DNA of 64,000 nt. Source: Alphaproteobacteria bacterium (GTDB taxonomy: Bacteria; Pseudomonadota; Alphaproteobacteria; Elsterales; Elsteraceae). Under the pieces are notes generated by a model. It was not told where the DNA came from and searched no databases. It saw only the letters and a program-made list of their open reading frames with translations. A program made the translations under genes and the position numbers. Of the stretch, positions 39,927-56,357 are shown piece after piece (within the stretch, counting starts at the first letter, position 1; each line of letters opens with the position of its first letter). The stretch is from contig RDXE01000035.1 in assembly GCA_004292755.1 (NCBI GenBank), forward strand, positions 1 to 64,000, given 5' to 3'.

Positions 39927-40918
39927 CGACTGGTATCCTGCAGGCGAATGCGTGGGTCCAGCGCGGCCAGCGCCAGATCGGACAACAACACCCCGACCAC
40001 CGTTAGCAGGGCCAGGAACAGCAGGAACGAGCCTGCCAAATACATATCCTGGCTGCGCAGGGCGTCCAGCAGCATCGGGCCTGTTGTTGGCAACGACATA
40101 ACAATCGAAACCACAGCCGCACCCGATACCAACTGCGGCAGTAGATTCCCGATGTCTGCGATGAAGGGGTTGAGCGCCATGCGCAAGGGATACTTGATCA
40201 ACAGGCGCCCAGGCGCCATGCCTTTGGCACGGGCGGTGGTGACGTATTGCTTGTGCAATTCATCCAACAAATTGGCCCTGAGGCGCCGGATCATTGCCGC
40301 GGTGCCCGCTGTTCCAATCACGATTGTCGGCACCACCAGATGCTCCAGCACCGAGACAACTTTGCCCCATGACCAAGACTGCCCGAGATAAACCGGATCC
40401 ATCAAGCCGCCAATCGACGTGCCGAAGACACGATTGGTGGCGTACAATAGAATCAGCGCCAGCAAAAAATTGGGCGTCGCCAACCCCAAAAATCCCAGAA
40501 ATGTTAACCCGTGATCAGCCAGAGTGTAGCGATGGGTGGCAGAGTAAATACCAATTGGAAACGCCACGATCCAGGTGAACAGCACTGTGGAGAAGGATAG
40601 GATAATCGATAACACCAATCGATCCCCCACCACTTCCGAGACTGGCCGCTCATACTCAAAGGACCAACCGAAATCTCCCTGCAAACATCCGAACAGCCAA
40701 ACGACATACTGCTCCAGAAACGGGCGATCCAGACCGTACTGCTGACGCAGAAAGTCAATCTTGGCCTGGTCGACTGCTTCCCCCTGGCTTTGCAGCTCAG
40801 CGATGTAGGTGGAGAGATAGTCGCCCGGTGGTAACTGGATGATCACAAAGCACAGGAAGCTGATTGCCACAAGAGTTGGTATCATCAGCAAGATGCGCCG
40901 GATCAGATAATCGATCAT
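39923..40918 (-). CDS. ABC importer permease, Dpp/Opp type (first)
   Basis: A 331-residue permease of the DppB/OppB type: YLIRRILLMIPTLVAISFLCFVIIQLPPGDYL at the start, the GLDRP segment, and an EAA loop (TTARAKGMAPGRLLIKYPLRMAL) near residue 225. It overlaps both neighbours by 4 bases. With the second permease it forms the membrane pore of the importer. Confidence 0.94.
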   Translation of the reverse strand: MIDYLIRRILLMIPTLVAISFLCFVIIQLPPGDYLSTYIAELQSQGEAVDQAKIDFLRQQYGLDRPFLEQYVVWLFGCLQGDFGWSFEYERPVSEVVGDRLVLSIILSFSTVLFTWIVAFPIGIYSATHRYTLADHGLTFLGFLGLATPNFLLALILLYATNRVFGTSIGGLMDPVYLGQSWSWGKVVSVLEHLVVPTIVIGTAGTAAMIRRLRANLLDELHKQYVTTARAKGMAPGRLLIKYPLRMALNPFIADIGNLLPQLVSGAAVVSIVMSLPTTGPMLLDALRSQDMYLAGSFLLFLALLTVVGVLLSDLALAALDPRIRLQDTSR

Positions 40919-42828
40919 GGCCGCACCTCGGCGCTACGCTGCGGGCCGTCGAACCAAAACAAGTCCGTGCGATGCAGGCCGAAATGGGCACCGGGGTCCC
41001 AGTTGTACAGCGCCCGTTCTGGTACATTGCGCAACCGGTTGGACACCACCACTGGCTGCGGCACGCCCGAGATCAGCCCAATCGTCAGCACTTCTTCTGC
41101 GTGAAGGCTCAACATCTCCCGCCAGATCGTCGCTTGATCCAGGGGATCGGTCGCAGTCAGCCAGCGGTGATAGAGGGCCAGCAAGCGACTGCCAATCGCC
41201 ATATCGATGGCCTCCCCCGCCTGCCCGGCCGTCTCCACATGGTTGCCCCAGCGCGACCACTGCCACTGGGTCTGGTCGGTCGGTGCCCACTCAGCCGGTG
41301 ACATCACAGGCGTTGGAATGCCGTTCTCCGCCCCTGGGGCGATGGTCATCAGTGTGGAGCCCGCAAACACCCGGTTGCGCAGCCCCTCCATCTGCAACGG
41401 TTTGGTCAGCAGCCGGATGCCCAGCCCCTGCCAGCTATCGCGGATCAATTGCAGGACGTCCGACTGCTCGGCGCCTTCACCAGGAGCCTCCACCACAATG
41501 GTCAGCGGTCGGCCATCGGGCAGGCGACGCTGACGATCCAGACCCTGGCGTGGGAGACCAATGGCATCGAGCAGGCGATTGGCCTCACGCGGGTCATAGC
41601 TGGCATAGGCCGTGCGCCAAGCGGGGTTCGCAAGGGAACTTTCGGCCTGCAGGGTGTTTTGGCCCTCCCGCGCCAGCCCGAAATAGACCACCTGATTGAT
41701 TTCGTGCCGGTTGATCCCCAACGACAGCGCGCGGCGGAAGCGAACATCGCGCATCAAGTCGCGCCAAACCGGATCGGTGACGGTTAGGTTGGGGAACAGG
41801 GCTAAGTGGGCCCCCCGGGCCGGCGTCCACAGATGAACGCGATACCCATTGCGTCGTGCTGCCTGCTGCAGGAATGGGTAGTTGTCGAACCCCAGATGGC
41901 GGGCCTGAAGGTGGCTTTCACCGGCACCGGCTTTCACCGGCACGATCTTGGGGTCCACCACTTCCAGCACCCAACGGTCGATGTAGGGCAGCTGGCGCCC
42001 CTGCGCGTCGACACGATGAAAGTAGGGATTGCGGACGAACACAAACCGCTCCGCTGGGGCACGGGTGGTGTTGACCCAGGGGTCGAGGGTCGGCAGATCG
42101 GGATTGTCCGCGCGGTAAAGATTGTCCAGCCGATTGTGAAGCTGCGCCCAGTTGCGGGCCGACGCCTCGCGCACCCTCCCCTCCAACGCCGCGCGATCGG
42201 CATAGCGCTCGTGAAACGGCTTCAGATAGTGGGCGGGACGGTAAGGAAAGAACGGCGCGGCCCCGGCGAGACTGGTCAGGAAAGTCGGGTGCGGTCGATC
42301 CCAGGAATACCGAACGGTGTGGGCGTCCAACACCTCAAAGCGCGCCAACTGACCGCCCACCACCAGTTGATGCGGCGGGCCGGTTGGATTGAGGCGGCGG
42401 TTCTGCGCCACATCCTCGAAATAGTAGCGGAAATCCTCCGCCGTGAACGGGTGACCATCAGACCAGCGATGGCCAGGCCGCAGCCGGAAGGTGAAGCTGC
42501 GGTCGGCCTCCACCTCCACCCCTGCCAAAATGTCGGGGACGAGCGCCAGGGTCTCGTCAAACACCATCAGCCGGGAATAGCCGTAAACGGACATCAGCCG
42601 GGTGTCCCGCGCACGCGACACCAGCGTGACCACCTCGCCGCCATAGCGCCCAGGGGTTTGCTCGGCGCGCGCGCCGCCCTGACGCGGCAGGCTCGGCAGG
42701 CGCTCCGCCATCGCAGGCAGGCGCCCGGCCGCCACCTCCGGCTCGAACAGCGGCACCTCCGCGCCGGCCGCCAAGGGGTGGAGCGGGGCCAGGAAGCTGC
42801 CCAGCAGCGCGAGTGCAAGCCAGCGCAT
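40915..42828 (-). CDS. ABC importer extracellular solute-binding protein, family 5
   Basis: A 637-residue periplasmic protein. The signal peptide at the start ([23 protein letters not shown]) fixes the ATG at 42828, which also overlaps the ATPase stop (TGATG). The family 5 core follows: TFRLRPGHRWSDGHPFTAEDFRYYFEDV and RFRRALSLGINRHEINQVV. Family 5 proteins bind peptides, opines or sugars. The large size and a tryptophan-rich C-terminal half fit oligosaccharide or peptide binders; the substrate is not known. Confidence 0.93.
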   Translation of the reverse strand: MRWLALALLGSFLAPLHPLAAGAEVPLFEPEVAAGRLPAMAERLPSLPRQGGARAEQTPGRYGGEVVTLVSRARDTRLMSVYGYSRLMVFDETLALVPDILAGVEVEADRSFTFRLRPGHRWSDGHPFTAEDFRYYFEDVAQNRRLNPTGPPHQLVVGGQLARFEVLDAHTVRYSWDRPHPTFLTSLAGAAPFFPYRPAHYLKPFHERYADRAALEGRVREASARNWAQLHNRLDNLYRADNPDLPTLDPWVNTTRAPAERFVFVRNPYFHRVDAQGRQLPYIDRWVLEVVDPKIVPVKAGAGESHLQARHLGFDNYPFLQQAARRNGYRVHLWTPARGAHLALFPNLTVTDPVWRDLMRDVRFRRALSLGINRHEINQVVYFGLAREGQNTLQAESSLANPAWRTAYASYDPREANRLLDAIGLPRQGLDRQRRLPDGRPLTIVVEAPGEGAEQSDVLQLIRDSWQGLGIRLLTKPLQMEGLRNRVFAGSTLMTIAPGAENGIPTPVMSPAEWAPTDQTQWQWSRWGNHVETAGQAGEAIDMAIGSRLLALYHRWLTATDPLDQATIWREMLSLHAEEVLTIGLISGVPQPVVVSNRLRNVPERALYNWDPGAHFGLHRTDLFWFDGPQRSAEVRP

Positions 42829-44630
42829 CAAGCGGCCTCCCTCATGTGGGCTTGGCGGACAAAGTGGCCGGGCGCCACTTCGATCAACGGCAATCGCTCG
42901 CCCGGGCCAATGCGCCATGGCTCCGGCCATGCCGCTGGGTTGGAGGCTCGACCATCACGAATGCGGCTGAAATCCAATGGCCGATCCGGGTCTGGCAGTG
43001 GCACTGCAGCCAGCAGTGCAGTGGTGTAGGGATGGCGCGGGGCGCGGAACAACTGCGCAGCCGGTGCAACCTCCACCAACCGCCCCGCGCACATCACCGC
43101 AATCCGGTCGGCCAGCGTGTCCACCACGGCGAGGTTGTGGGAGACGAACAGCATGCTCAGCCCCAACTCCCGCTTCAACTCGGCCAGCAGCGCCAGGATC
43201 TGCGCCTGGATGGAGACATCAAGGGCCGAGACCGGCTCGTCACACAGCAGCACCCGCGGCTCCAGCGCCAGCGCCCGTGCAATTCCAACGCGCTGGCGCT
43301 GCCCGCCAGAGAAGCTGTGCGGATAACGCAGGCGGTGGCGCGGGTCGAGGCCAACGCGGTGCAGCAACTCCTGCACCCGCGCGGCGCGACTGGCCTCAGT
43401 CCCAATGCCGTGGATCACCATCGGCTCGGCAATGATGTCGGCGACCGTCATGCGCGGGTTAAGGGAGGCGAAGGGGTCCTGAAACACATATTGAACGGCC
43501 CGCCGATAGGCCTTCAGCCCCGCCCCACCAAGATTGGCAACTGAGTGCTCCACCCCCTGATCATCCCGCCACAGGATGCGTCCCTCGTCGGGGGTGAGTG
43601 CATGCAGGATCATTTTGGACAGGGTGGTCTTGCCACACCCGCTCTCGCCCACCAGTCCCAGACACTCGCCGCGCCGCACCTCTAGATCGACAGAATCGAC
43701 GGCGACATGGGGGGGTTGGGTACTGGCTTTGAACCAACCGCTGGCGCGCACGGCGAATCGTTTGGTCACCCCCTCCACCCTCAGCACGGCGTCGCCCTCC
43801 GGCGGCGTCGGACGCGGCCGATCGGCGATGCTGGGGACTGATGCCATCAGGTGCTTCAGATAGGGGTGCTGCGGAGCACGGAACAGCTCAGCCGTCGGGC
43901 CTTGCTCCATCACCTTGCCACGCCACAGCACCACAACGTCTTCGGCAATGTTGGCGACCACCCCCAAGTCGTGGGTGATCATCAACAGCGCCATGCGCAG
44001 TTCCGCCTGCAGGTCCTTCAATAGGTGCAGAACCTGCGCTTGAACCGTGACATCCAGTGCCGTGGTCGGCTCATCCGCTATCAACAGGGCGGGACGACAC
44101 ACCAGCGCCATCGCGATCACTGCGCGCTGGCGAAGGCCGCCAGACAGCTCAAATGGATAGGCATCAAACGCCCGCTTCGGATCGGGAAAGCCAACCAGCC
44201 GCAGCATGTCGCGGGTCAACTCCGCCCCTGCGGCTCGGTCCAGCCGCCGATGCAGGTGCAGGGCTTCGGACACTTGATCGCCGATGGTGTGCAGCGGCGA
44301 CAGCGCCGACATCGGCTCCTGAAACACCAGTGCGATGCGCTGGCCGCGGATGCGCCGCCACGCGGCATCGTTGGGCAGCGTCATCAGGTCCATCTCGGGG
44401 CTGGTATCGCGGTCCCGGAACCACACCTGACCGCCAACCACCCGACCCGCACTTGGCAGAATGCCAAGGATGGCCTGCGAAATCACCGACTTGCCTGACC
44501 CGCTCTCCCCCACCAGCGCGACACTGCCGCCAGTCGGAATCGAGAACGAGACCCGATCCACAGCCGTAAAGCTGCCGCCGGGCAGATCAAAGGCGATCGA
44601 CAGATCCTCGACGCGCAGCATCTCCGCCAT
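42828..44630 (-). CDS. ABC importer ATP-binding protein with two nucleotide-binding domains
   Basis: A 600-residue duplicated ATPase of the YejF/GsiA type. The first domain has GESGSGKS (Walker A), [15 protein letters not shown] (signature, with LSGGL) and [12 protein letters not shown]. The second has [23 protein letters not shown] and [12 protein letters not shown]. The start at 44630 ([11 protein letters not shown]) is chosen because the upstream open frame to 44990 has no homology-like sequence and runs into the divergent gene. It is the first gene of the importer operon (ATPase, binding protein, two permeases). Confidence 0.94.
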
Positions 44631-44840: not shown

Positions 44841-47504
44841 ATGACCCAGCCAACGCCGCCCGAAGATCGTCTGCCCCCCACCCTTTTCGCCTTCATCCGG
44901 CGCCACAGCCTGCAGCAGCAGATTGTGGTGACCTGCATCACGTTGGTATCCTTCCCTTTTCTGTATTACTCGTTTGAACTTCCAAAGCAAATCATTAATC
45001 AGGCAATTGGTGGTAAGGATTTTCCAAAAGATTTTTTCGGTGTGTCGCTGGACCAGATGCCGTTCTTGATGGCACTGTCGTTCTTATTTTTGTTCCTGGT
45101 TTTGATCAATGGCGGGTTCAAATACTATATTAATGTCTACAAGGGAAGATTGGGGGAGCGCATGCTACGGCGCCTGCGCTTTGATCTCTACAGCCGAATG
45201 CTGCGCTTTCCACTGTCCCACTTCTCCCGCAACGCACCGGGCCAATACATCCCGATCATTACCTCTGAGGTTGAACCCCTGGGCGGGTTCATCGGCGACA
45301 GCATCAGTTTACCAGTGTTTCAAGGCGGCACGCTGCTGACGATCCTGGTGTTCATGTTCATGCAAGACCCGGTGCTGGGTCTGGCGGCGATCTCGCTATA
45401 TCCCTTGCAAATTTGGCTGATCCCAAAGCTGCAGGCCAAGGTCAACCGCATGGCGAAACAGCGGGTGCGATTGGTGCGCCAGCTGTCCGATCGCATTAAC
45501 GAGACGGCGATTGGCCTGACCGAAATCCATGCCAGCGGCATATTGCGTCATCAGCGGGCAGATTTCAGTGCTCGATTGATGCAGAACTACTCTATTCGTT
45601 ATCGGATTTTTGTTTGGAAATTCCTGATCAAATTTCTGAACAACTTTATCGCACAGCTTACCCCATTTTTCTTCTACGCTATTGGTGGGTACCTAGTGAT
45701 TCGGAATGAATTATCTTTCGGTGCGCTCGTTGCGGTGCTAGCGGCCTACAAGGATCTCAATTCGCCTTGGCGGGAACTGCTGGATTATTACCAGCAATTG
45801 CAAGATAACAAGATCAAGTACCAGCAAGTGGTTGAGCAGTTTGAACCGCCCGGCCTGCTGCCTGCCGCTCTAGCAGAAACCAATGACCTGCCCGCACCAA
45901 AGGGGCATGCCGATCTCGCCGCTTCTGGCCTCACGGTGCTGGGCGAGGGGGACACCCGGCTGGTTGATGGTGTGTCGCTTCGCCTCGCCGGGGGGCAAGC
46001 CGTCGCCCTGGTTGGCAGTGATGGCGGCGGCAAGCGGGAAGTGGCGCGGGTCCTCGCGGGCTTGGAGGCGCCAAGTGCCGGTCGGGTTACCCTCGACGGG
46101 GTAGACCTTGGCGCACTGCCGCGTCCGGCGATTGCCCGCCGCATCGCCTATGTCAGCTCCGACCCTGTGCTGTTCCAGGGCACGGTGTTGGACAACCTGA
46201 CCCTCGGCTTGAAACATCAGCCAGCCAACCCCGCCCCACCCCTGTTCGCAGCCGAGGCCCAGCGCACGGGCAACAGTGCCGATGACATTGCGGCTGATTG
46301 GATCGACCGGCATGTCGCCGGTGCGGACGATGAGGCGGGCTTCAACGACCGTTTGAGTCAGGTGCTTTCCCGCGTGGACTTGTTCGATGAACTGCGCGAG
46401 TTATCCTTCCGCTCGATCATCGACCCGGATCGCCATCCCACCCTTGTTGCCGTGGTGCTGGAGGTGCGTGCCGCGCTGCGCACCCACCTGCCAGAGCAGG
46501 CAACCCGCGGCTTTTTTGAGCCCTTCGACGCCGACCGCTTCACCGACCAAGCCAGCATCGGCGAGAACCTGCTGTTTGGCACGCCGGTCGGGCCGGCCTT
46601 CGATCTCGCCAACTTGGCGGACAATGCCCATGTCCGCAAAATCCTGACCGACGAACGTTTGATCGACCGTCTGTGCGAGATGGGCGCGCAAGCCGCCCGC
46701 CTGTTGGCGGAGATTTTCCGCGGCCTCGCCCCCGATGCCGACATCATCCGCACCTACTCCTTCGTCGATGCCGATGAACTGGCCGCCCTGGAGCCCGTGG
46801 TGCAGCGCCACCAGCGCCAGGGGCTGGACGGGTTACGACCGGAAGAGCGCATCTCGTTTGCCTCCCTCGCGCTGCGCATGGTCCCGGCCCGCCACCGGTT
46901 GGGTCTGGTCGACGATGGCTTGCGCTCTGCGATTGTGTCGGCCCGCCGCTGTCTGGCCGACACCATGCCGCCGGCACTGCGGGAGCAGTTGGAGTTCTAT
47001 GACTTCACCCGCTACAACCGCGCCGTTTCCGTGCGCGATAACATGTTGTTCGGGCGCCTCGTGCCGGGGCAGGAGGTTGCCTCCAGCCGCATGCGAACGA
47101 TGATCGTCCAGGCGCTGGATCAGGTTGGCCTGCGTCAGCGCTTGCTCGAAGCCATCACCGCTGTCGGGTTGGATATCGATGTCGGCGTCGGCGGTTCCCG
47201 CCTTTCCGCACCCATGCGCCAGCGCCTCGCAATCGCGCGCGCCCTGTTGCGCCAGCCAGATGTCTTGGTCGTGCAGGATGCCGCTTCCCATCTCGACCCC
47301 GCCGACCAACCGGGTTTGATTGCCGCTGTGCGCGAGGCCATGGCAGGACGCCCCTTGGTTTGGGTCATGCAGCGTGCAACCTTAGCCCAGGCGTTCGACG
47401 AAGTGATGGTGGTTGACCGCGGTCGCATCGTTGAACAGGGGCGCTATGAGGACTTGGTCCAGCAAGCGGGTGGTGCACTCGCCAAGCTGGTGCAGGTTGA
47501 CTAG
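44841..47504 (+). CDS. ABC exporter-like protein with degenerate, enlarged nucleotide-binding domain
   Basis: An 887-residue protein. Residues 25-315 are an exporter-type six-helix transmembrane domain with a long periplasmic-type loop (GGKDFPKDFFGVSLDQ). The NBD begins near 355. Its motifs are all altered: Walker A GSDGGGKR (392-399, Ser/Thr replaced by Arg399), signature LSAPM (789-793), Walker B VLVVQDAASHLD (808-819, Asp to Gln812 and Glu to Asp813) and H-loop VMQR (Gln844 for His). A 280-residue insertion (about 455-735) separates the halves. Three xDN/ENLxFG-like motifs occur at 450, 575 and 733. ATP hydrolysis by this copy seems unlikely. It is followed by a cNMP-binding gene and glycosyltransferases, so a role in glycan or lipid export is inferred. 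Start: ATG after GGATAT. Confidence 0.9.
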   Translation: MTQPTPPEDRLPPTLFAFIRRHSLQQQIVVTCITLVSFPFLYYSFELPKQIINQAIGGKDFPKDFFGVSLDQMPFLMALSFLFLFLVLINGGFKYYINVYKGRLGERMLRRLRFDLYSRMLRFPLSHFSRNAPGQYIPIITSEVEPLGGFIGDSISLPVFQGGTLLTILVFMFMQDPVLGLAAISLYPLQIWLIPKLQAKVNRMAKQRVRLVRQLSDRINETAIGLTEIHASGILRHQRADFSARLMQNYSIRYRIFVWKFLIKFLNNFIAQLTPFFFYAIGGYLVIRNELSFGALVAVLAAYKDLNSPWRELLDYYQQLQDNKIKYQQVVEQFEPPGLLPAALAETNDLPAPKGHADLAASGLTVLGEGDTRLVDGVSLRLAGGQAVALVGSDGGGKREVARVLAGLEAPSAGRVTLDGVDLGALPRPAIARRIAYVSSDPVLFQGTVLDNLTLGLKHQPANPAPPLFAAEAQRTGNSADDIAADWIDRHVAGADDEAGFNDRLSQVLSRVDLFDELRELSFRSIIDPDRHPTLVAVVLEVRAALRTHLPEQATRGFFEPFDADRFTDQASIGENLLFGTPVGPAFDLANLADNAHVRKILTDERLIDRLCEMGAQAARLLAEIFRGLAPDADIIRTYSFVDADELAALEPVVQRHQRQGLDGLRPEERISFASLALRMVPARHRLGLVDDGLRSAIVSARRCLADTMPPALREQLEFYDFTRYNRAVSVRDNMLFGRLVPGQEVASSRMRTMIVQALDQVGLRQRLLEAITAVGLDIDVGVGGSRLSAPMRQRLAIARALLRQPDVLVVQDAASHLDPADQPGLIAAVREAMAGRPLVWVMQRATLAQAFDEVMVVDRGRIVEQGRYEDLVQQAGGALAKLVQVD

Positions 47505-47688
47505 AGCACAGACAGCGCCATCCCGCGGGGTCACGGGTTGGCGCTTTGATGCTCGCTGAACAGAGGGTAGAGCGGGTTGGCTGAGCGACAGCGCGGTCCC
47601 CTCGCTCTTGTGGTCTGATCGAAGCGCTTGATGTCCAAGTGTGTCGTCACTCAGTCCACCACCTCACAGCCACTGGAGGGGCGGGGCA

Positions 47689-48147
47689 ATGAGCTTGATG
47701 GAAGAAGCGGAAAGCCTGCGCAAGGTACCGCTGTTCGCCAAAGTGGAGGAATCCCACCTGAAGCTGTTGTCCTTCACGGCGGAGCGGGTGAGCTTCATGG
47801 ATGGCGAAACCTTCATTCGCCAGGGCGACATTGGCGACCACGCGTTCCTGATCCTGGATGGTGAGGTGGAAATCCTGTTCGAGACGACGGAGGAGGCACG
47901 CCTGTTCAATGTCATGCGTGCCAACCAGATGGTGGGGGAGATCGCCTTGCTGCGCGATAGCCGCCGCTCCGCCAGCTGTCGCGCGCGCGGAGCGGTGACC
48001 TGTCTGCGCCTGTCACGGGACGTGTTTTTCCACTTAATTCGGCATTCTCCTGACTTTGCGATCGGAATCATGAAAGAGCTGGCCTACCGCCTAGATTATG
48101 GTGCGGAGCAGGTGCGTGACATTCTGCGCACGCAACGCAGCCGCTAG
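47689..48147 (+). CDS. Stand-alone cyclic nucleotide-binding domain protein
   Basis: A 152-residue single-domain protein. The cNMP-binding fold is clear: FIRQGDIGDHAFLILDGEVEILF, then the phosphate-binding cassette VGEIALLRDSRRSASCRA with Gly-Glu and Arg-x-Ser, and a C-terminal lid helix. There is no DNA-binding HTH, so it is not a CRP-type regulator. It sits between the degenerate ABC protein and the glycosyltransferase cluster; a link to the cyclase at 36112 is possible. Start ATG 47689 with GGGGCGGGG in front. Confidence 0.87.
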   Translation: MSLMEEAESLRKVPLFAKVEESHLKLLSFTAERVSFMDGETFIRQGDIGDHAFLILDGEVEILFETTEEARLFNVMRANQMVGEIALLRDSRRSASCRARGAVTCLRLSRDVFFHLIRHSPDFAIGIMKELAYRLDYGAEQVRDILRTQRSR

Positions 48148-48220
48148 GGTGAAAGCGCCACACATGCCCAAGAACCACCGAACCCGACCACGCTCTGCCA
48201 CAGCTTCACCATATTTTTGC

Positions 48221-48250
48221 TCGACAGGGTGCCCGGCGGCGTGCCCTAGT
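48221..48250 (+). promoter_or_regulatory. Possible sigma-70 promoter before the glycosyltransferase operon
   Basis: TCGACA (48221-48226) matches TTGACA at five of six bases, and CCTAGT (48245-48250) is 18 bases downstream, a weak -10. It lies 84 bases ahead of the first glycosyltransferase start, in a 186-bp space. Weak evidence. Confidence 0.25.
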
Positions 48251-48333
48251 CTCGCCGATGGCGGGTGGAGACACGGGCCCCGAGCTTGTGTTGCGCCCCT
48301 GCCGATCTGGCATCGTTCGGTCTAGGCCCCCGC

Positions 48334-49554
48334 ATGGCGCGTCGGAAGCTCCTTATCTACAGCCACGACAGCTTCGGGCTGGGTCACCTCCGGCGCTGCC
48401 GTTCCATCGCGCTGAACCTCGTCGCTTCCAACCCTGAGTTGGAGGTGATGATCGTTTCTGGTCTGCCGTTGATCAGCCAGTACGATTTCCATCCGCGCGT
48501 TCAGATCGCCTTGGTGCCGCAGATCATCAAGCAACGCGATGGGGAGTATCGCGCCAGCCGCAATGGCGATCTGTCCAGCGCGATTGAGCAGCGCTCGCAC
48601 GTGATCCTGGAGGTTGCGTTGCGGTTCCAGCCCGACGTGTTCCTGGTGGACAAGGAACCCCTGGGCATCCGGGGCGAGGTTGCTGCCACCTTGGAAGCAC
48701 TGGCAGACCGCGGGTGCCGCATCGTGCTTGGCTTGCGCGATGTGATGGACGACCCCGCCGTGCTTCAGCGGGAGTGGGAGCGCAAACACGCCCTTGATGC
48801 TGTTGAGCGGTACTACGACGAAATCTGGATTTACGGCTTGGAGCGGATTTATCAGCCGCTTCAGGGCCTGCCGCTCAGTAAGAACGCCGCCCGACGCCTT
48901 ATCTACACCAGCTATCTGCGCCGTGACCCCAGTGGCACAGCACCATCGGTCGCCACCGATGGTGGGCGCGGTCACTTGCTGGTCACTCCCGGCGGTGGTG
49001 GGGATGGAGAGGATCTGGTCGCAGCGGTGCTCGGTGCGTTGGAGGCCGGGTCCTGGGCGAATCGGCCTGTGGTGATTGTCTCCGGCCCGTTCATGCAGGC
49101 CGACCTGCGCCGCAGCTTTGCCAAGCGGGCAGACCAGCTTCCAATGGTGCGGATGCTGGAATTCGTGCCCTCGATGGAAGACCTAGTCGCCGACGCCACG
49201 GCGATTGTTGCGATGGGTGGATACAACACCTTCTGTGAAATCCTGTCCTTTGACAAACCAGCCCTGGTGGTGCCCCGCACCAAGCCGCGGTTGGAGCAGT
49301 TCATCCGGGCCGAGCGGGCCGATGCCCTGGGGCTGGTGCGCATGCTGACCGATGTTGACGCGGCTGACCCCGCGCGCATGGCGTCGGCGCTTGACGCGCT
49401 TGCCAGCCAGGCCCGGCCCAGTGCGGCAGCGATCCCGCACCTGCTGGATGGTCATCAGACCATTGCCCGCCGGATGCAGGCCTTGTTGGCGCCGCTGCCG
49501 GTGCCGGCGGTGCATCGGCGGCCAGCCCTGAAGCTGGCGGGTGCGCGCGCCTGA
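48334..49554 (+). CDS. MurG-like glycosyltransferase (COG4671 type)
   Basis: A 406-residue GT-B fold enzyme. The N-terminal half begins LIYSHDSFGLGHLRRCRSIA; the C-terminal half has LLVTPGGGGDGEDLV and a MurG-like AIVAMGGYNTFCEILSF donor-binding segment, then ALVVPRTKPRLEQFIRAERA. It would transfer a sugar from a nucleotide-sugar; acceptor unknown. The ATG at 48334 is chosen as the start at the first beta strand; the longer frame to 48265 is unconvincing. It is the first gene of the seven-gene cluster, followed by 1 base and then a second glycosyltransferase. Confidence 0.9.
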   Translation: MARRKLLIYSHDSFGLGHLRRCRSIALNLVASNPELEVMIVSGLPLISQYDFHPRVQIALVPQIIKQRDGEYRASRNGDLSSAIEQRSHVILEVALRFQPDVFLVDKEPLGIRGEVAATLEALADRGCRIVLGLRDVMDDPAVLQREWERKHALDAVERYYDEIWIYGLERIYQPLQGLPLSKNAARRLIYTSYLRRDPSGTAPSVATDGGRGHLLVTPGGGGDGEDLVAAVLGALEAGSWANRPVVIVSGPFMQADLRRSFAKRADQLPMVRMLEFVPSMEDLVADATAIVAMGGYNTFCEILSFDKPALVVPRTKPRLEQFIRAERADALGLVRMLTDVDAADPARMASALDALASQARPSAAAIPHLLDGHQTIARRMQALLAPLPVPAVHRRPALKLAGARA

Positions 49555-49555
49555 C

Positions 49556-50788
49556 ATGGCGGATGCACCGTCGCTGGTGGTGGTGCTAAAGGGCTATCCG
49601 CGCCTGTCTGAGACGTTCATCGCGCAAGAGCTGTTGGGCCTTCAGCAGCGCGGGTTCAACCTCACGCTGCTGTCTCTCCGGCGTCCAACCGACGCCAGCC
49701 TGCACCCGATCCATCGCGAGATCACGGCACCAGTCCACTATCTGCCGGAGTATCTGCACGAAGCACCGGTGAGGGTCCTGCGTGCCCTGGCAGCGGCCCG
49801 CCACCTGCCGGGGTGGAGCCGTGCCCTGGCCGCGTTTCGAGCCGACGTGGTGCGGGATCGAACCCGCAATCGCGTGCGGCGCTTCGGCCAGGCCGCAGTT
49901 GCCGCCGCGCTGGTGCCGCCCACTGCGACGGCTCTCTATGCTCATTTCCTCCACACCCCAGCCAGTGTCGCCCGCTATGCGGCGCTGATGCTGGGTTTGC
50001 CCTGGGCTGCCTCCGCCCACGCCAAAGACATCTGGACCACACCGGAGTGGGACCTCGCCGAGAAACTGGCGGAGGTGCAGTGGTGTGCCACCTGCACCCA
50101 GGTGGGCGCCGACCACTTGCGGTCGCTGGCACGCAACCCGTCCCGCGTGATGCTGGCCTATCATGGGCTGGACCTTGGCCGCTTTGCCGATCCCGGCCCC
50201 CGGCCGCAGCAGCGCGATGGCAGCCTGCTGGAGGATCCGGTGCGGCTGCTGTCGGTTGGCCGCTTGGTGGAAAAGAAGGGGTTTGATGACGTCGTTGCCG
50301 CATTGGCCGCGCTGCCGCCGCAGCTTGCGTGGCGGTGGGACCATATCGGCGGCGGCCCCTTGAAGCGCACCCTCGCTGCGGCGGTTGCTGAGGCTGGACT
50401 CAGCCATCGGGTCACATGGCATGGTGCCCAACCGCAGCAAACTGTGCTGGCCGCCTATCGCGAGGCTGATCTGTTCTTGTTACCCGCCCGCATTGCGCGC
50501 GACGGGGATCGCGATGGCCTGCCCAATGTGCTGATGGAGGCTGCCAGCCAGCGATTGGCCTGTGTTGCGAGCACGGTCTCCGCCATCCCGGAGTTCATTG
50601 TCGCGGAGGAGAGTGGCCTGTTGGTCGCCCCCGGAGACCGCGAGGCCCTGACCACCACCTTGATCCGCGCGATCACCACGCCCGCCTTGCGCCAGCAGCT
50701 GGCCAACGCTGGGCGCCAGCGTCTGGTCGCAGGGTTTTCCATGGACGCTGGCATCGACGCCATCGCGGACCGCCTACGCCAGCTATGA
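49556..50788 (+). CDS. Glycosyltransferase, GT4 family (WcaL-like)
   Basis: A 410-residue GT-B enzyme. The N-terminal domain opens VVVLKGYPRLSETFIAQELLGL, common in colanic-acid-type transferases. The C-terminal donor domain has LLSVGRLVEKKGFDDVV, IGGGPLKRTL and the ExFGxxxxE-like loop (PARIARDGDRDGLPNVLMEAAS). The transferred sugar is not evident. It follows the MurG-like gene by 1 base and overlaps the next gene by 4. Confidence 0.9.
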   Translation: MADAPSLVVVLKGYPRLSETFIAQELLGLQQRGFNLTLLSLRRPTDASLHPIHREITAPVHYLPEYLHEAPVRVLRALAAARHLPGWSRALAAFRADVVRDRTRNRVRRFGQAAVAAALVPPTATALYAHFLHTPASVARYAALMLGLPWAASAHAKDIWTTPEWDLAEKLAEVQWCATCTQVGADHLRSLARNPSRVMLAYHGLDLGRFADPGPRPQQRDGSLLEDPVRLLSVGRLVEKKGFDDVVAALAALPPQLAWRWDHIGGGPLKRTLAAAVAEAGLSHRVTWHGAQPQQTVLAAYREADLFLLPARIARDGDRDGLPNVLMEAASQRLACVASTVSAIPEFIVAEESGLLVAPGDREALTTTLIRAITTPALRQQLANAGRQRLVAGFSMDAGIDAIADRLRQL

Positions 50789-51861
50789 CGATCGCGTTCT
50801 ACGCCCCGATGAAAGCGCCCGACCATCCTGTCCCATCGGGTGATCGCGCGCTGGGCCGCCTGCTGGTCCGCGCGCTGGAGGCGACTGGCGAGCCCGTGGA
50901 GATCGCCTGTCGCCTGCGTACGTGGGACCGCACCGGCGACTCCGTCCGCCAGCAGCGGCTGGCCGACCTCGGCGCGCGCGCCGCTCGCTGCCTGTTGGCG
51001 CGCCCGCGTGCGCGCTCCTGGCGGTTGTGGTTCACCTACCACCTCTACCATCGCGCCCCTGATCCCATTGGCCCTGTCGTTGCCAGTGCCCTTGGCATTC
51101 CCTATGTCGTCGCAGAGGCGTCAGTTGCGGCCAAGCAGGCGCGCGGCCCGTTCGCCAGCGGCCATGCCAGCACGATTGCCGCGCTGGGCACAGCCGCGCG
51201 GGTGATCGCGGTCAACCCGGTGGATGTGGAGGGGGTACGCGCGGTGCTGCCTGATCCGTCTCGTCTCGGCCTGCTACCACCGTTTCTCGACCTCGCCAAC
51301 CGACCGGTCACGCCCATCACCCCGCCCGCGGAGGGACCGTGGCTGCTGGCCGTTGGGATGTTCCGCGCTCGTGCCAAGCTCGCCTCCTACCAAGTGCTGG
51401 GTGACGCCCTCGCGCGGCTGCTGGATCGCCGCTGGCGGCTTGCTGTGATTGGCGCTGGCCCGGCGGAGCGGGAGGTACGCCACGCCCTCAGTGCTCTGGG
51501 TGCGCGGGTGTGGTTTCTGGGCCAGCAGCCAGACGCCATCGTAGCGGGCTGGATGGCGGCAGCAGATCTGCTGGTCTGGCCCGCCATCGACGAAGCCTTC
51601 GGCATGGCAGTGCTGGAGGCCCAAGCGGCTGGTCTGCCAGTGGTCGCAGGCGCCTCCCCCGGTGTGGGCGCTGTCGTGCGCACGGGCGAGACGGCCTTGC
51701 TCCCACCCCTCGGCGACGCTGCCGCCTTTGCTGAGGCGGTCGCCTGGTTCCTGGATCAACCGGACCTCCGCCGCGCGTTTGGCGCACGCGCCGCTGCTTG
51801 GGTGCGCTCGGAGCGTGACCTGCCGACAGCCGCAGCCCGGCTCGCAGCCCTGCTGCCATGA
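50785..51861 (+). CDS. Glycosyltransferase, GT4-like
   Basis: A 358-residue transferase, coupled by ATGA overlaps on both sides. Donor-domain marks are LLAVGMFRARAKLASYQVL, IGAGPAEREV and DLLVWPAIDEAFGMAVLEAQAAGLPVVAG (the Glu-x7-Glu element). It is slightly shorter than its neighbour and the N-terminal acceptor domain is unusual for the family, with little family-typical sequence in the first 100 residues. Confidence 0.88.
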   Translation: MTIAFYAPMKAPDHPVPSGDRALGRLLVRALEATGEPVEIACRLRTWDRTGDSVRQQRLADLGARAARCLLARPRARSWRLWFTYHLYHRAPDPIGPVVASALGIPYVVAEASVAAKQARGPFASGHASTIAALGTAARVIAVNPVDVEGVRAVLPDPSRLGLLPPFLDLANRPVTPITPPAEGPWLLAVGMFRARAKLASYQVLGDALARLLDRRWRLAVIGAGPAEREVRHALSALGARVWFLGQQPDAIVAGWMAAADLLVWPAIDEAFGMAVLEAQAAGLPVVAGASPGVGAVVRTGETALLPPLGDAAAFAEAVAWFLDQPDLRRAFGARAAAWVRSERDLPTAAARLAALLP

Positions 51862-52418
51862 CCGGACCCTGCCATCTGGTCCTGATTCGCCATGGACCAA
51901 CGGCCTGGAGTGCTGAGAAGCGCTTGCAGGGTCGCCGGGACATCCCGTTGTCCCAGGCCGGTGCCGCCATGGTTGCGACCTGGCGGGTACCACCGGCTTG
52001 GCGCAGCTGGCGCTGGCACACATCCCCCCTCACCCGGGCGCGCGCCACGGCGGCGCTGTTGCACAGCGGCGCGATTGACGTCACCGCAGCGCTGATTGAG
52101 ATGGATTTCGGCGCCTGGGAAGGGCTGACCAGCGCAGACCTGCCCGCCAGCGAAACCAGCCGGGGCCTCACCATGACGCCCCCCAGTGGCGAAAGCCCGG
52201 CGATGGTGCAGGCCCGGCTTCGGCCTTGGCTGTCCACCCTTGCGGAGGATACCGTCGCCGTCACCCATAAAGGAGTGATCCGCGCCGTGCTGGGCCTTGC
52301 AACGGGTTGGAGCTTTCTTGGCAAGCCACCGGTTCGACTGGACTGGACGGCGGGTCATCTGTTCGCCGTGGAGGCAGGCCTGCCCCGCTATCTGTCAAGT
52401 CAGTCGCTGCTGCCGTGA
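51858..52418 (+). CDS. Histidine phosphatase family protein
   Basis: A 186-residue phosphoglycerate-mutase-like phosphatase: LIRHGPTAW (catalytic RHG), SPLTRARATA, the acid in MDFGAWEGL, and the second catalytic His in VAVTHKGVIRAVL. It is embedded in the glycan cluster by 4-base overlaps, so a sugar- or lipid-phosphate substrate is plausible (compare CobC and GpmB types). The substrate is unknown. Confidence 0.88.
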   Translation: MTGPCHLVLIRHGPTAWSAEKRLQGRRDIPLSQAGAAMVATWRVPPAWRSWRWHTSPLTRARATAALLHSGAIDVTAALIEMDFGAWEGLTSADLPASETSRGLTMTPPSGESPAMVQARLRPWLSTLAEDTVAVTHKGVIRAVLGLATGWSFLGKPPVRLDWTAGHLFAVEAGLPRYLSSQSLLP

Positions 52419-53554
52419 CGCGGGTGCTGTTCCACGTCCAGCATCTGCTGGGCATCGGCCACCACCGACGCGCAGAGCGGTTGGCGCAGGCGTTGGTTGC
52501 AGCCGGGGCAACCGTGACCGTCGCCGCGGGCGGCGAAGCCGTGCCGGGAGAGGATTGGGGCGGCGCCCACGTCGTGCGTCTGCCCGCCGCGCGCGCCGAC
52601 GGCGTTGACTTCAAAACCCTGCTGGATGCCACCGGCACCCCAATCACAGAGGCGTGGAAGCAAGCCCGCACGGCCACCCTGCTCGGCCTGGCGCAGCAGG
52701 TGCAGCCCGACGTGCTGCTGCTGGAAGGCTTCCCCTTCGCCCGCCGTCAGTTGCGCTTTGAATTGCTGCCCCTCTTGGAGCAGTTGGCCAACCGCACCCC
52801 CCGCCCCAAGGTGATCGTGTCCTTGCGTGACATACTGGTCGCCAAATCTGACCCCAAACGCGTGCGCGAAGTTGTCAACCTGGTGCAGCAGCGGGTGGAT
52901 CGCGTGCTGGTTCATGGCGATCCCCGCCTTGTTCGGTTGGACGCCAGCTTCCCCGCGGCGACCGAGATTGCTGACCGGGTGGTCTACACCGGCTATGTCG
53001 CCCCGTCGGCACCCAGCCTGATCCCGGTTGAGCGGCGTGGCGTCTTGGTCTCGGCCGGGGGCGGTGCTGTTGGGAGCCCCTTGTTCGCCGCTGCCCTGGA
53101 TGCCTGCGCTGCCGGGGCAGCCGCTGACCAGCCCTGGCGGATCGTCTGCGGCCCGCAACTGCCCGAGGCTGACCGTCGGCAGGTGCATCAACGGGCAGCT
53201 GCCTTGGGGGTCGCCGTGGATGATCACCGGACGGACCTGCCCCAATTGATGGCAGCAGCCGCCCTGTCCATCAGCCAAGCGGGCTACAACACTGTCTTGG
53301 ACCTTGTCGCAGCTGGGCCGCGCGCCATCCTGGTGCCCTTCGCCACGGGCGGCGAGACGGAGCAGCCTTTGCGGGCTGCCTTGCTGCAAGCCGGTGGCCG
53401 CGCTTGGGTGGTCCACGAGGCGACGGTGAGTGGTGCATCCTTGGGGGCCGCCATCACCAGCGCGTTGAGCCAGCCGCTACCTCTGCCCCTCACTCTTACC
53501 CTCGATGGTGCCGCCACCAGTGCGCGCCTTATCCTTGCCGAGGCCAGTCAATGA
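52415..53554 (+). CDS. MurG-like glycosyltransferase (second COG4671-type)
   Basis: A 379-residue GT-B protein, starting at GTG 52415 (GTGA overlap). N-terminal VLFHVQHLLGIGHHRRAERLAQAL resembles the FGLGH opening of the first cluster gene, and GVLVSAGGGAVG, ISQAGYNTVLDLVAAGPRAILVPF are the matching donor-binding segments. The two MurG-like proteins may be paralogues with different sugars or acceptors. Longer frames upstream are shadows of the phosphatase gene. Confidence 0.88.
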   Translation: MTRVLFHVQHLLGIGHHRRAERLAQALVAAGATVTVAAGGEAVPGEDWGGAHVVRLPAARADGVDFKTLLDATGTPITEAWKQARTATLLGLAQQVQPDVLLLEGFPFARRQLRFELLPLLEQLANRTPRPKVIVSLRDILVAKSDPKRVREVVNLVQQRVDRVLVHGDPRLVRLDASFPAATEIADRVVYTGYVAPSAPSLIPVERRGVLVSAGGGAVGSPLFAAALDACAAGAAADQPWRIVCGPQLPEADRRQVHQRAAALGVAVDDHRTDLPQLMAAAALSISQAGYNTVLDLVAAGPRAILVPFATGGETEQPLRAALLQAGGRAWVVHEATVSGASLGAAITSALSQPLPLPLTLTLDGAATSARLILAEASQ

Positions 53555-54294
53555 CGCTGTGGACACCCCTCGATCAAGAATTGGCGCTGTGGCGGCGGGC
53601 TGGTCGGCTCGCCACTCTGTGGTGGCGCGATGATGATGCCGAGGCCCCCTCGCCTGCCCTCGACCGCCTGCTGCGCGTCACCCGCGGCCTGCCCGTTGCC
53701 TTGGCGGTGGTGCCCGCTGGTGCTGGGGGCGATCTTGCCCACCGGCTGACGACGGAACCTGGGATCGGCATCATCCAGCACGGTTGGCAACACCGAAACC
53801 ACCAGCCTGTCGGCAGCAAAACCGCAGAGTTCGGTGATGCCCGCCCGGTGCAAGACAGTCGCCGCGACCTGCAATACGGCTGGATGGCCCTGACCCGCCT
53901 GTTCGGTAGCCGGGTGCGTCCGGTGTTGGTGCCGCCCTGGAACCGGATCGACCCAGCCTTGGCGGGCGACTTGCCAGGCTATGCTGCGATCTCCGTCTTT
54001 GGCAGCCGCCGCACCCGAACGACGGGCCGGAGCCTGTGGCTGAACACCCACATCGACCCGATCCGATGGCGCGATGGCCGCCGGTTTATCGGCGCCGAAG
54101 CGTTTGTTGCCCGGCTGGTTGAGCATCTGGCCGCACGCCGCACCGGTGCGGTTGACCCGGAAGAAGTGACCGGTCTGCTGACCCATCACCTAGCCCACGA
54201 TGAGGCGCTGTGGGAGTTTTTGGAGGAGGCTGTGCCCCGCCTCGCCGCCAATCGCCAACTGCGGTTCTTGACCCTGGATGAGGTATTGGCATGA
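53551..54294 (+). CDS. Polysaccharide deacetylase-like protein
   Basis: A 247-residue protein with NodB-like features: LWWRDDDA near the N terminus (catalytic Asp-Asp), IIQHGWQHRNH (metal-binding His pair), VPPWNRID and a final LLTHHLAHDEALW. It would deacetylate N-acetyl-sugars in the glycan. It has no signal peptide, so it probably acts on cytoplasmic precursors. It overlaps neighbours by 4 bases each. Confidence 0.85.
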   Translation: MTLWTPLDQELALWRRAGRLATLWWRDDDAEAPSPALDRLLRVTRGLPVALAVVPAGAGGDLAHRLTTEPGIGIIQHGWQHRNHQPVGSKTAEFGDARPVQDSRRDLQYGWMALTRLFGSRVRPVLVPPWNRIDPALAGDLPGYAAISVFGSRRTRTTGRSLWLNTHIDPIRWRDGRRFIGAEAFVARLVEHLAARRTGAVDPEEVTGLLTHHLAHDEALWEFLEEAVPRLAANRQLRFLTLDEVLA

Positions 54295-56357
54295 GCCGAC
54301 TGGACGATGCGCGCCGCCATCACGAGGCGGGCGATTTCGCCAGCGCCGCCCCCCTGTATCAGGCGCATCTGGAGCGTGCGCCCGACGACATCGATGCGCT
54401 TTACCTGTTTGGCACCCTGTTGCTGCAGATTGGTGAGGTGGAAGCTGCGCGCGAACCGTTGACCCGCGCCGTCACACTGTCCCCCAACCACGTCCCGGCG
54501 TGGAGCAATCTGGCCGTAGCCGCCGAAGCCATGGGTGACGCGGACGGCGCCCTGAGTGCTTTGGACCAAGTGCTGCGACTGGAACCGGGCGATGGCGATG
54601 TCCGCTCCGTTGCCACCCGCCTGCGCCTGGACCTCGCGGCCGAACGGGCGGCAACGGGCGATTTGGGCGATGCGCTGGAGGTGCTGGCCCCCTTGCGCAC
54701 CGCTGGTGCCGTCGACCCCGATGGTGCTGCACTTGGCTGTGTGGCTGCGGCCTCGCTGCTGATGCAGGCCGGTCACCTGGACGCCGCGCGGGAGGCTGCC
54801 GTTGCAGCGACGGACCTTGCCCCTGGCCCCGAGACCTGGACAGTGCGGGCTGAGATTGACTTGGCCCGCCGCGATCCACGGGCTGCCTTGATTGCAGCAG
54901 AGGCTGCGGTGTTGGAGGGTGGCGGGCTGAACGCGGCCCTTACCCGTGCCACCTGTCTGGCCGCTGTGGGGCGGGCCAGTGACGCGCGCGCCGCCTTCCA
55001 GGCGCTTGCGGACTCAACGGGCGACCCAGTTCTGCACCTGCGCGCCAGCCTGTCCATTGATCCTGTTCCTGCGGATCAAGGAGAGATCGATCACCACCGC
55101 AGCGCCTTCGCCGCCGCCCTGGCGCGGCTGGAAGCGGACCCGCCGGTGATCGATGATCCAGCCGATGCAATCCAGCAACCCGCCATGATGTTCGCCTATC
55201 ATGGCGAGGATGAGCGACCAGTGGTGGAGCGTTATGCCCATCTGCTGCGCCGCTGCTGCCCGCTGTTGACGGAACCGGTGCCGCTGGTGCCAAGGCGGGC
55301 GCGCCCGCGGGTGGCGCTGGTCTCTGCCTTCCTCCACGCCCACACCATTGGCAAGTTGACCCAGGCCCTGGTGCATTGGCTGGCCCCGCGGGTGGAGTTG
55401 ATCCTGGTGCGCTGGCCGGGTCCGGAAGACGGACTATGGCAGAGCCTCGCGCGCGTTGCTGCTGGCACCCTCACTCTACCGCCACGCTTTGCCGATGCCC
55501 GCCGTGCCTTGGCCGAGGTGCAGGCAGACGTGATCCATTACCCCGAACTCGGCATGCATCTGCCAACCCTGTTGTTGGCCCATGGACGCCTCGCGCGGGT
55601 GCAGACCGTTGGCTGGGGGCACCCTGTCACCACTGGTCTCGACAGTCTGGATGCCATGCTCTCGGTTGCGGTGATGGAGCCTGCGGGCGCCGAGGCACAC
55701 TACACTGAGCCGCTGATTGGCTTGCCGGGCCCTGGCGTTTTCTACCCTACCCCTGTCCTGCCAGCCGACCGGCCAGGGCGGGAGGCGCTGGGCCTACCCG
55801 CTGGGCGCCTGTATGTCTGCCCGCAAAGCCTGTTCAAACTGCATCCCGCGTTCGACGCCACTCTGGCGGCCGTGTTGGCGGAAGACCCCAAGGGCTACCT
55901 TGTGTTGATTGACGGGGAGCATCCGTCCTGGACCACCGCGCTGCGTCAGCGCCTCGCCCCCCGGTTGGACCTCAGCCGCGTGATCCTGCTGCCGCGGCTG
56001 GATCAGCGCCAGTTCTATGGCCTGATGGCTGCAGCCGATGTGCTGCTGGACGTGCCGCATTGGTCCGGTGGTAACAGCACGCTGGAAGCGCTGGCACTCG
56101 GCACCCCTATTGTCACCACCCCCGGACGCTTCATGCGTGGCCGTCACACAGCTGGCTTCCTTACTCTGGCCGATCTGCCGGTTCTGGCAAGCGCCACCCC
56201 AACCGACTACGCCACCGCCGCCCACAGTCTCGCCACCAGCGCCGCCCGCCCGCACTGGCAACGCCACGCCGCCTGCCTGTTCAACCGCGAAGACCCCGCG
56301 GCCGCCACCCTCGCCCACTGGCACGCTTTGCTGGAGGCCGGTGGGGCGCTGCGGTGA
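54291..56357 (+). CDS. TPR protein with GT41/SPINDLY-like glycosyltransferase domain
   Basis: A 688-residue protein. Residues 5-260 are TPR repeats (AGDFASAAPLYQAHLERAPDDIDALY...). Residues 310-680 are an O-GlcNAc-transferase-like domain: RPRVALVSAFLHAHTIGKL, VQTVGWGHPVTTGLDSLDAML, CPQSLFKLHPAFD and the donor-site-type HWSGGNSTLEALALGTPIVTTPG...FMRGRHTAG. Such proteins glycosylate proteins (e.g. flagellins, autotransporters) or take part in glycan assembly. It is the last of the seven coupled genes. The next minus-strand sequence is a decayed methyltransferase that overlaps its end region. Confidence 0.88.
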   Translation: MSRLDDARRHHEAGDFASAAPLYQAHLERAPDDIDALYLFGTLLLQIGEVEAAREPLTRAVTLSPNHVPAWSNLAVAAEAMGDADGALSALDQVLRLEPGDGDVRSVATRLRLDLAAERAATGDLGDALEVLAPLRTAGAVDPDGAALGCVAAASLLMQAGHLDAAREAAVAATDLAPGPETWTVRAEIDLARRDPRAALIAAEAAVLEGGGLNAALTRATCLAAVGRASDARAAFQALADSTGDPVLHLRASLSIDPVPADQGEIDHHRSAFAAALARLEADPPVIDDPADAIQQPAMMFAYHGEDERPVVERYAHLLRRCCPLLTEPVPLVPRRARPRVALVSAFLHAHTIGKLTQALVHWLAPRVELILVRWPGPEDGLWQSLARVAAGTLTLPPRFADARRALAEVQADVIHYPELGMHLPTLLLAHGRLARVQTVGWGHPVTTGLDSLDAMLSVAVMEPAGAEAHYTEPLIGLPGPGVFYPTPVLPADRPGREALGLPAGRLYVCPQSLFKLHPAFDATLAAVLAEDPKGYLVLIDGEHPSWTTALRQRLAPRLDLSRVILLPRLDQRQFYGLMAAADVLLDVPHWSGGNSTLEALALGTPIVTTPGRFMRGRHTAGFLTLADLPVLASATPTDYATAAHSLATSAARPHWQRHAACLFNREDPAAATLAHWHALLEAGGALR

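Follow-up and report, generated by a model that had tools for sequence, protein, structure and literature searches.

A co-inherited alphaproteobacterial gene set, with a degenerate ABC protein tied to a cyclic-nucleotide sensor, that looks like a surface-sugar system

Why would bacteria keep an ABC exporter-fold protein that has lost its catalytic residues, next to a cyclic-nucleotide sensor and a run of glycosyltransferase genes? Such an arrangement is found in the window, a stretch of 64,000 nucleotides from an alphaproteobacterium of the family Elsteraceae (assembly GCA_004292755.1, contig RDXE01000035.1, positions 1 to 64,000). A reading of the letters alone (the original prediction) had proposed a candidate glycan locus under cyclic-nucleotide control at positions 44841 to 56357. 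The question is whether these genes belong together and, if they do, what they could do.

All nine genes of the block are present, as judged from Pfam, NCBIfam and open reading frames with likely starts assigned. They are listed here together with the genes upstream.

36112 to 38100, minus strand: class III cyclase with TPR (PF00211, 6.2e-5)
38778 to 39926, minus strand: importer permease of the OppC type (PF00528 and OppC_N; 64% identity to the permease of the Rhizobium pRL11 locus)
39923 to 40918, minus strand: importer permease of the OppB type (PF00528; 62% identity to the pRL11 homologue)
40915 to 42831, minus strand: solute-binding protein of family SBP_bac_5 (Pfam; profile match to SPH1118)
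42828 to 44630, minus strand: importer ATPase with two nucleotide-binding domains, both Walker A motifs intact (GESGSGKS and GESGCGKT)
44841 to 47504, plus strand: degenerate ABC exporter-fold protein, 887 amino acids, with an insert in the nucleotide-binding domain (Pfam, motifs, AlphaFold, structure match)
47689 to 48147, plus strand: stand-alone cyclic-nucleotide-binding (cNMP) domain protein, 152 amino acids, the sensor (PF00027, 6.4e-19)
48334 to 49554, plus strand: GTa, a MurG/GT28-C-like glycosyltransferase (PF04101, 5.7e-9) that co-occurs with the ABC
49556 to 50788, plus strand: GTb, a GT4 glycosyltransferase (PF00534, 3.5e-27) with conserved active-site blocks
50785 to 51861, plus strand: GTc, a GT4 glycosyltransferase (PF13692, 2.1e-26)
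51858 to 52418, plus strand: HisP, a histidine phosphatase of branch 1 (PF00300, 4.8e-31)
52415 to 53554, plus strand: GTd, a MurG-like glycosyltransferase (PF04101, 1.8e-12)
53551 to 54294, plus strand: Deac, a NodB-like deacetylase (invariant motifs and PGAP names of homologues; no Pfam match)
54291 to 56357, plus strand: TPR-GT41-like protein (Pfam), a genus-level addition outside the conserved unit

The predicted gene content (dead ABC, cNMP sensor, four glycosyltransferases, phosphatase, deacetylase and TPR-GT41) is borne out by Pfam, NCBIfam and motifs. So is the tight packing of the seven genes from 48334 to 56357. GTb/GTc, GTc/HisP, HisP/GTd, GTd/Deac and Deac/TPR-GT41 each overlap by 4 bases in the checked sequence, and GTa and GTb nearly abut. 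Gaps of about 190 bases each separate the ABC gene from the sensor gene and the sensor gene from GTa. The block was also said to be without wzx, wzy, ligase or nucleotide-sugar genes. This stands for the nine block genes and the upstream genes scanned with Pfam, but not for relatives, since the Rhizobium, Sinorhizobium and Sulfitobacter loci carry an adjoining UDP-sugar dehydrogenase. A Wzx/Wzy flippase-polymerase pair or an active export ABC is found neither in the window block nor in the R. etli, pRL11 and Sulfitobacter loci. The same four, together with the annotation of A. ramasamyi, contain no initiating phosphoglycosyl transferase and no oligosaccharyltransferase; polymerase and ligase are likewise absent from the loci examined. 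An Rfam search gave no match.

Do the genes travel together? When genome contigs were scanned with an alignment of the ABC, more than 570 relatives came out; the best 80 loci were retained, each flank being up to 10 kb long. Among these 80, GTa occurs in at least 53, GTb in at least 59, GTc in at least 58, HisP in at least 49, GTd in at least 52 and Deac in at least 45. These counts are lower bounds because many contigs stop within the block. Of 142 alphaproteobacterial genomes sampled, 42 have ABC and GTa together, 2 have only the one, 2 only the other and 96 lack both (p=4e-31, a value that ignores relatedness). For ABC and deacetylase the corresponding numbers are 37, 7, 2 and 96 (p=1e-24, again ignoring relatedness). 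Genome G069 was left out of the count, its match being a generic ABC with 21% identity. In 11 of the 42 genomes with both, ABC and GTa are not adjacent, hence the association is more than physical linkage. The order of the block also recurs across orders of Alphaproteobacteria. Recurring order and genome-wide co-occurrence together argue against chance, and from such comparisons we conclude that the set is co-inherited. The conserved, undescribed glycan locus that was predicted, a claim that hung on the genes co-occurring in other genomes, has thus held up. About one third of the sampled alphaproteobacterial genomes have the set, among them marine species and the nitrogen-fixing plant symbionts Rhizobium, Sinorhizobium and Azospirillum. 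In a phylum sample of 299 genomes the ABC family is confined to Alphaproteobacteria, bar one partial match.

The limits of the unit differ from those first drawn. Its core genes stand, yet the block as bounded is incomplete without the importer and, in other families, without a sugar-nucleotide dehydrogenase. The divergent four-gene ABC importer at 38778 to 44630, which had been left outside and called peptide-type, is part of the block by locus comparison. The TPR-GT41 gene, in contrast, had been counted as a member and is rejected: it is found in none of the 80 loci and recurs in the same-genus genome G001 only. The cyclase at 36112, proposed as a dedicated partner, fares no better. A partnership is possible but unsupported, as its position beside the block is not conserved: any class III cyclase lies within 10 kb in 7 of 80 loci, a number that does not stand out clearly from background.

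The Rhodospirillales-like order is ABC-cNMP, then GTa-GTb-GTc-HisP-GTd-Deac, in some cases a membrane protein, and then the importer. In some relatives the importer genes come after the deacetylase gene, share its strand and are separated from it by a gene for a small membrane protein; an importer divergent from the ABC, as in the window, also occurs in the same-family genome G003. A single helix is predicted in the small membrane protein, which matches DUF5114 weakly (L059, 3719-4285, and 26 other loci). Rhizobiaceae, Roseobacteraceae and Azospirillum have rearranged forms. On R. etli p42e and R. leguminosarum pRL11 the first part comprises cNMP, ABC, GTd-, GTb- and GTa-type genes, importer and cyclase; the rest comprises a nucleotide-sugar dehydrogenase and a methyltransferase, another cyclase, this one predicted to have six membrane segments, and then a GTc-type gene and a deacetylase. 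Rhizobium loci thus include two cyclases. In one of them (L132, 31329-33047) a cyclase that resembles CyaC comes just before the GTc-type gene and the deacetylase; it has a ferredoxin-like cysteine motif as well as the six predicted membrane segments. Most of the Rhizobium set is found on Sinorhizobium meliloti pSymB at about 822-845 kb. Sulfitobacter plasmids carry the importer, an MscS-type channel, the dehydrogenase, GTa to deacetylase and then an ABC-cNMP fusion. In Azospirillum ramasamyi an ABC of fusion length is followed by the importer and then by GTa to deacetylase.

A small methyltransferase (PF12692, Methyltransf_17) directly follows the sensor in 42 of the 80 loci (L050-L129; for example L058 13155 and L117 13147) and also lies near the block in Rhizobium. 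PF12692 has no match in the source genome, but control genomes are equally blank, so this is no proof of absence. One phenotype was found for the set: pRL110056 of R. leguminosarum is reported to be important for root colonization (PMC11103875), and by counting genes from repA we infer that it is the dehydrogenase of the locus. The genes smb20804 and smb20805 (PMC5539429) were also considered; no tie to the S. meliloti copy of the locus was made. By concept or by locus tag, we found no published description of the set in the openly licensed literature.

At the centre of the set stands the ABC protein. Its exporter membrane and nucleotide-binding domains are recognisable (PF00664, 3.3e-22; PF00005, 1.1e-17), and the whole AlphaFold model matches IrtAB, SAV1866, TM287/288 and MsbA with Z of 28-29. 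The best NCBIfam model is MsbA, with 202 bits against a cut-off of 602, followed by related exporters. The features that set the protein apart lie in the nucleotide-binding domain.

46014 to 46037, plus strand: Walker A, GSDGGGKR, with S/T lost (motif alignment)
46221 to 46976, plus strand: insert of about 250 residues, limits approximate (alignment; folded in prediction)
46512 to 46592, plus strand: repeat 2 of the Q-loop/helical segment (...SIGENLLFG...; hhalign to repeat 3, E=7e-15)
46995 to 47069, plus strand: repeat 3 of the same segment (...SVRDNMLFG...; alignment and profile comparison)

In the window protein Walker A ends in GGGKR, the Q-loop is without its glutamine, Walker B has become VVQD and glutamine replaces the histidine of the H-loop. 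Of the six canonical residues it retains the Walker A lysine alone. The predicted degeneracy is real not only here but family-wide. None of 112 members has all six catalytic residues, and 111 of the 112 retain at most four. Walker A S/T is kept in 12 members, the Walker B aspartate in 11 and the Q-loop glutamine in 24; the H-loop histidine is kept in 44, the Walker A lysine in 72 and the catalytic Walker B glutamate in 65; the D-loop aspartate (104) and the signature glutamine (102) are kept in most. The protein is full length and aligns over nearly 890 residues in 111 relatives, so it is not a decayed gene. Hence, as far as its residues tell, it is an exporter-fold protein without the residues for Mg-ATP hydrolysis, though some residual hydrolysis may be possible. 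In S. meliloti 1021 and R11 the ABC is split over two frames at different places (L131, 26003-29540; L135, 23601-29000), which may be sequencing error or real decay. Some genomes (G222 and G254) have two or three degenerate copies, and the reading frames of these have room for a fused sensor.

The insert sits between the Q-loop and the signature. It holds an extra copy of the segment that enters the helical domain at the Q-loop, giving three copies overall, and profile comparisons link copies 2 and 3 (E=7e-15), 1 and 3 (7e-7) and 1 and 2 (6e-7). The insert is folded in the AlphaFold model, with a mean pLDDT of 86.5 for the whole ABC and 87.3 for the insert region alone. Pfam assigns it to no family, with a single weak match in 1 of 46 members, and Foldseek with the insert alone gave no significant match (nothing below E 0.7). 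In a second structure search the matches were weak (Z 3.5-5.5), and the ten best all fell on the helical part of nucleotide-binding domains from ABC exporters, in agreement with the sequence repeats.

The sensor is a cNMP domain alone. It has no helix-turn-helix, so it does not belong with CRP or Clr. Its phosphate-binding cassette is conserved (GEiAi...PRtA, 78 sequences), and its best PDB matches include eukaryotic cAMP- and cGMP-dependent kinases. Domain and cassette make it a predicted cyclic-nucleotide-binding protein. An anti-phage (Pycsar) identity was rejected: the match, to PycTIR, is limited to the cNMP domain, and the locus has neither a TIR nor a Pycsar effector. The association of sensor and ABC, which had been foreseen, is close. 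In 74 of the 80 loci the sensor gene comes directly after the ABC gene, and in another three the two are fused. Fusions with the sensor at the C-terminus occur in several lineages (L079, Thalassospira L118 and L124, strain UR115, Sulfitobacter); in Azospirillum ramasamyi and S. indolifex a fusion is judged by length only. Such fusions are good evidence that both proteins work together, and a functional link between sensor and ABC appears to be real. No CRP-like palindrome was found between ABC and GTa in 50 intergenic regions.

What does the importer bring in? It has the Opp/Dpp architecture, with an SBP_bac_5 protein, two permeases and two nucleotide-binding domains. Among profile matches of the binding protein, the uncharacterised 'oligopeptide' protein 5ipw comes first (1.1e-125), then SPH1118 (8.9e-100), with the alpha-galactoside-binding protein 6epy lower (1.3e-52) and DppA far below (4.5e-19). 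SPH1118 is the nearest relative with a characterised ligand. In Sphingomonas sp. A1 it serves pectin chemotaxis and assimilation and was once annotated as oligopeptide-binding (PMC7055323, PMC9314435); pectin is bound, yeast extract and tryptone hardly at all (PMC9314435). Since SPH1118 is nearer than DppA and binds pectin, an acidic oligosaccharide is a better guess for the ligand than a peptide.

The deacetylase has invariant RDDD, HGxxH, PPWNR and HH motifs and thus the aspartate and histidines that bind metal in NodB/CE4 enzymes, and PGAP calls its homologues polysaccharide deacetylases. Its profile has no significant match in the PDB and it has no match in Pfam, so that it would be a remote NodB/CE4 member at best.

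Taken together, the set looks like an undescribed signal-controlled surface-sugar system. We tentatively favor, as one possibility among several, the view that, under the control of a cyclic nucleotide, it produces and handles a short glycan of the cell surface or periplasm, which might be free or part of a glycolipid or glycoprotein, with the ATPase-dead ABC as membrane gate or scaffold. GTa to GTd, the phosphatase and the deacetylase would assemble a glycan of about four sugars on the cytoplasmic face. The glycan would be partly de-N-acetylated and, in several families, would contain a uronic acid, as the UDP-sugar dehydrogenase of those loci suggests. The dead ABC would not pump; for the glycan or its enzymes it might act as a gate, a scramblase or a docking platform, and its switch would be cAMP or cGMP bound to the sensor beside the nucleotide-binding domain. 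The importer would return acidic oligosaccharide for recycling, priming or feedback. A sharper form, in which the dead ABC is a cyclic-nucleotide-gated conduit or scramblase for the short glycan, under post-translational control by cAMP or cGMP, and the importer closes a feedback loop, is unlikely to be right in all its parts.

Could the ABC still be transporting, slowly or by unusual chemistry, as a cyclic-nucleotide-regulated exporter of a glycan or glycolipid? In favour of this, exporter fold and membrane part have been preserved, MsbA and related exporters are the nearest NCBIfam models, and the Walker A lysine (72/112), the D-loop aspartate (104/112), the signature glutamine (102/112) and the catalytic glutamate (65/112) are often kept. 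However, the Mg-coordinating positions have gone as a group (S/T of Walker A in 100/112, aspartate of Walker B in 101/112, glutamine of the Q-loop in 88/112), no member has all six residues, and a partner subunit would not repair both ATP sites, the signature being altered as well. We therefore doubt that the protein works as an exporter. If it does not transport, the ABC-cNMP pair may instead only regulate, or sense the state of membrane or glycan, and move nothing, much as SUR does in the KATP channel; what it governs would be the importer or the glycosyltransferases. The dead nucleotide-binding domain and the fused sensor fit such a role, and the folded insert could serve interactions. Against it, the membrane half is conserved to exporter level, and no conserved partner channel is found, MscS being present in some loci only. 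This makes a purely regulatory role somewhat improbable, though it deserves to be kept in mind.

The importer suggests a different emphasis, in which the set mainly takes up an acidic plant or algal oligosaccharide that is modified inside the cell, the glycosyltransferases using it as acceptor. Its SPH1118-like binding protein, its intact ATPase and the sharing of one operon by importer and glycosyltransferases in many genomes point this way; yet among the identified frequent neighbour families neither a polysaccharide lyase or glycosidase nor a gene of sugar catabolism was recognised, and uptake as the main function is quite unlikely. Finally, unrelated envelope genes might have come together by chance in large alphaproteobacterial genomes. 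Carriers of the set are mostly large, so that its presence could track genome size. The same order in distant families, the co-occurrence of unlinked genes and the fusions contradict this, and leave coincidence very little room.

A dead ABC tied to a sensor is unusual and, as it turns out, widespread, and it belongs to a set whose membrane protein is currently annotated as an ordinary ABC transporter. If our reading is true, a bacterial ABC fold has come to serve as a regulator or gate under cyclic-nucleotide control, and these bacteria have a non-transcriptional cyclic-nucleotide target at the cell surface. The locus occurs in genetically tractable species that are not pathogens, hence the question is directly testable.

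How does the set compare with known systems? The ABC shares the membrane and nucleotide-binding fold with type IV ABC exporters such as MsbA, NdvA/ChvA and PglK. Unlike them it is without catalytic residues, has a repeat insert of about 250 residues and carries a sensor alongside or fused; the intact Walker A S/T, Q-loop, Walker B DE and H-loop of an active type IV exporter are not found in the window protein. From the SPH1118 system, to which the importer is related by sequence, it differs in that the importer adjoins glycosyltransferases. The Campylobacter pgl locus has several GT-B glycosyltransferases and an ABC exporter for a short glycan, with a PglC-like initiator and the oligosaccharyltransferase PglB. 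Several glycosyltransferases and an exporter-fold ABC are common to both, but the set described here has no PglC-like enzyme and no PglB, and its ABC is dead. SUR of KATP channels is an ABC exporter fold that serves as a nucleotide-responsive regulator, with one working site and a channel as partner. The ABC model also matches SUR structures (Z about 28), although no partner channel is recognised for it. A parallel in signalling is cAMP-Clr of S. meliloti, in which a DNA-binding protein exerts transcriptional control over the polysaccharide genes smb21240-48 (PMC5498481). Its gene set is different, and our sensor has no DNA-binding domain and is linked with a membrane protein instead. What the two have in common is a cyclic nucleotide and a surface polysaccharide, in a species that has the locus.
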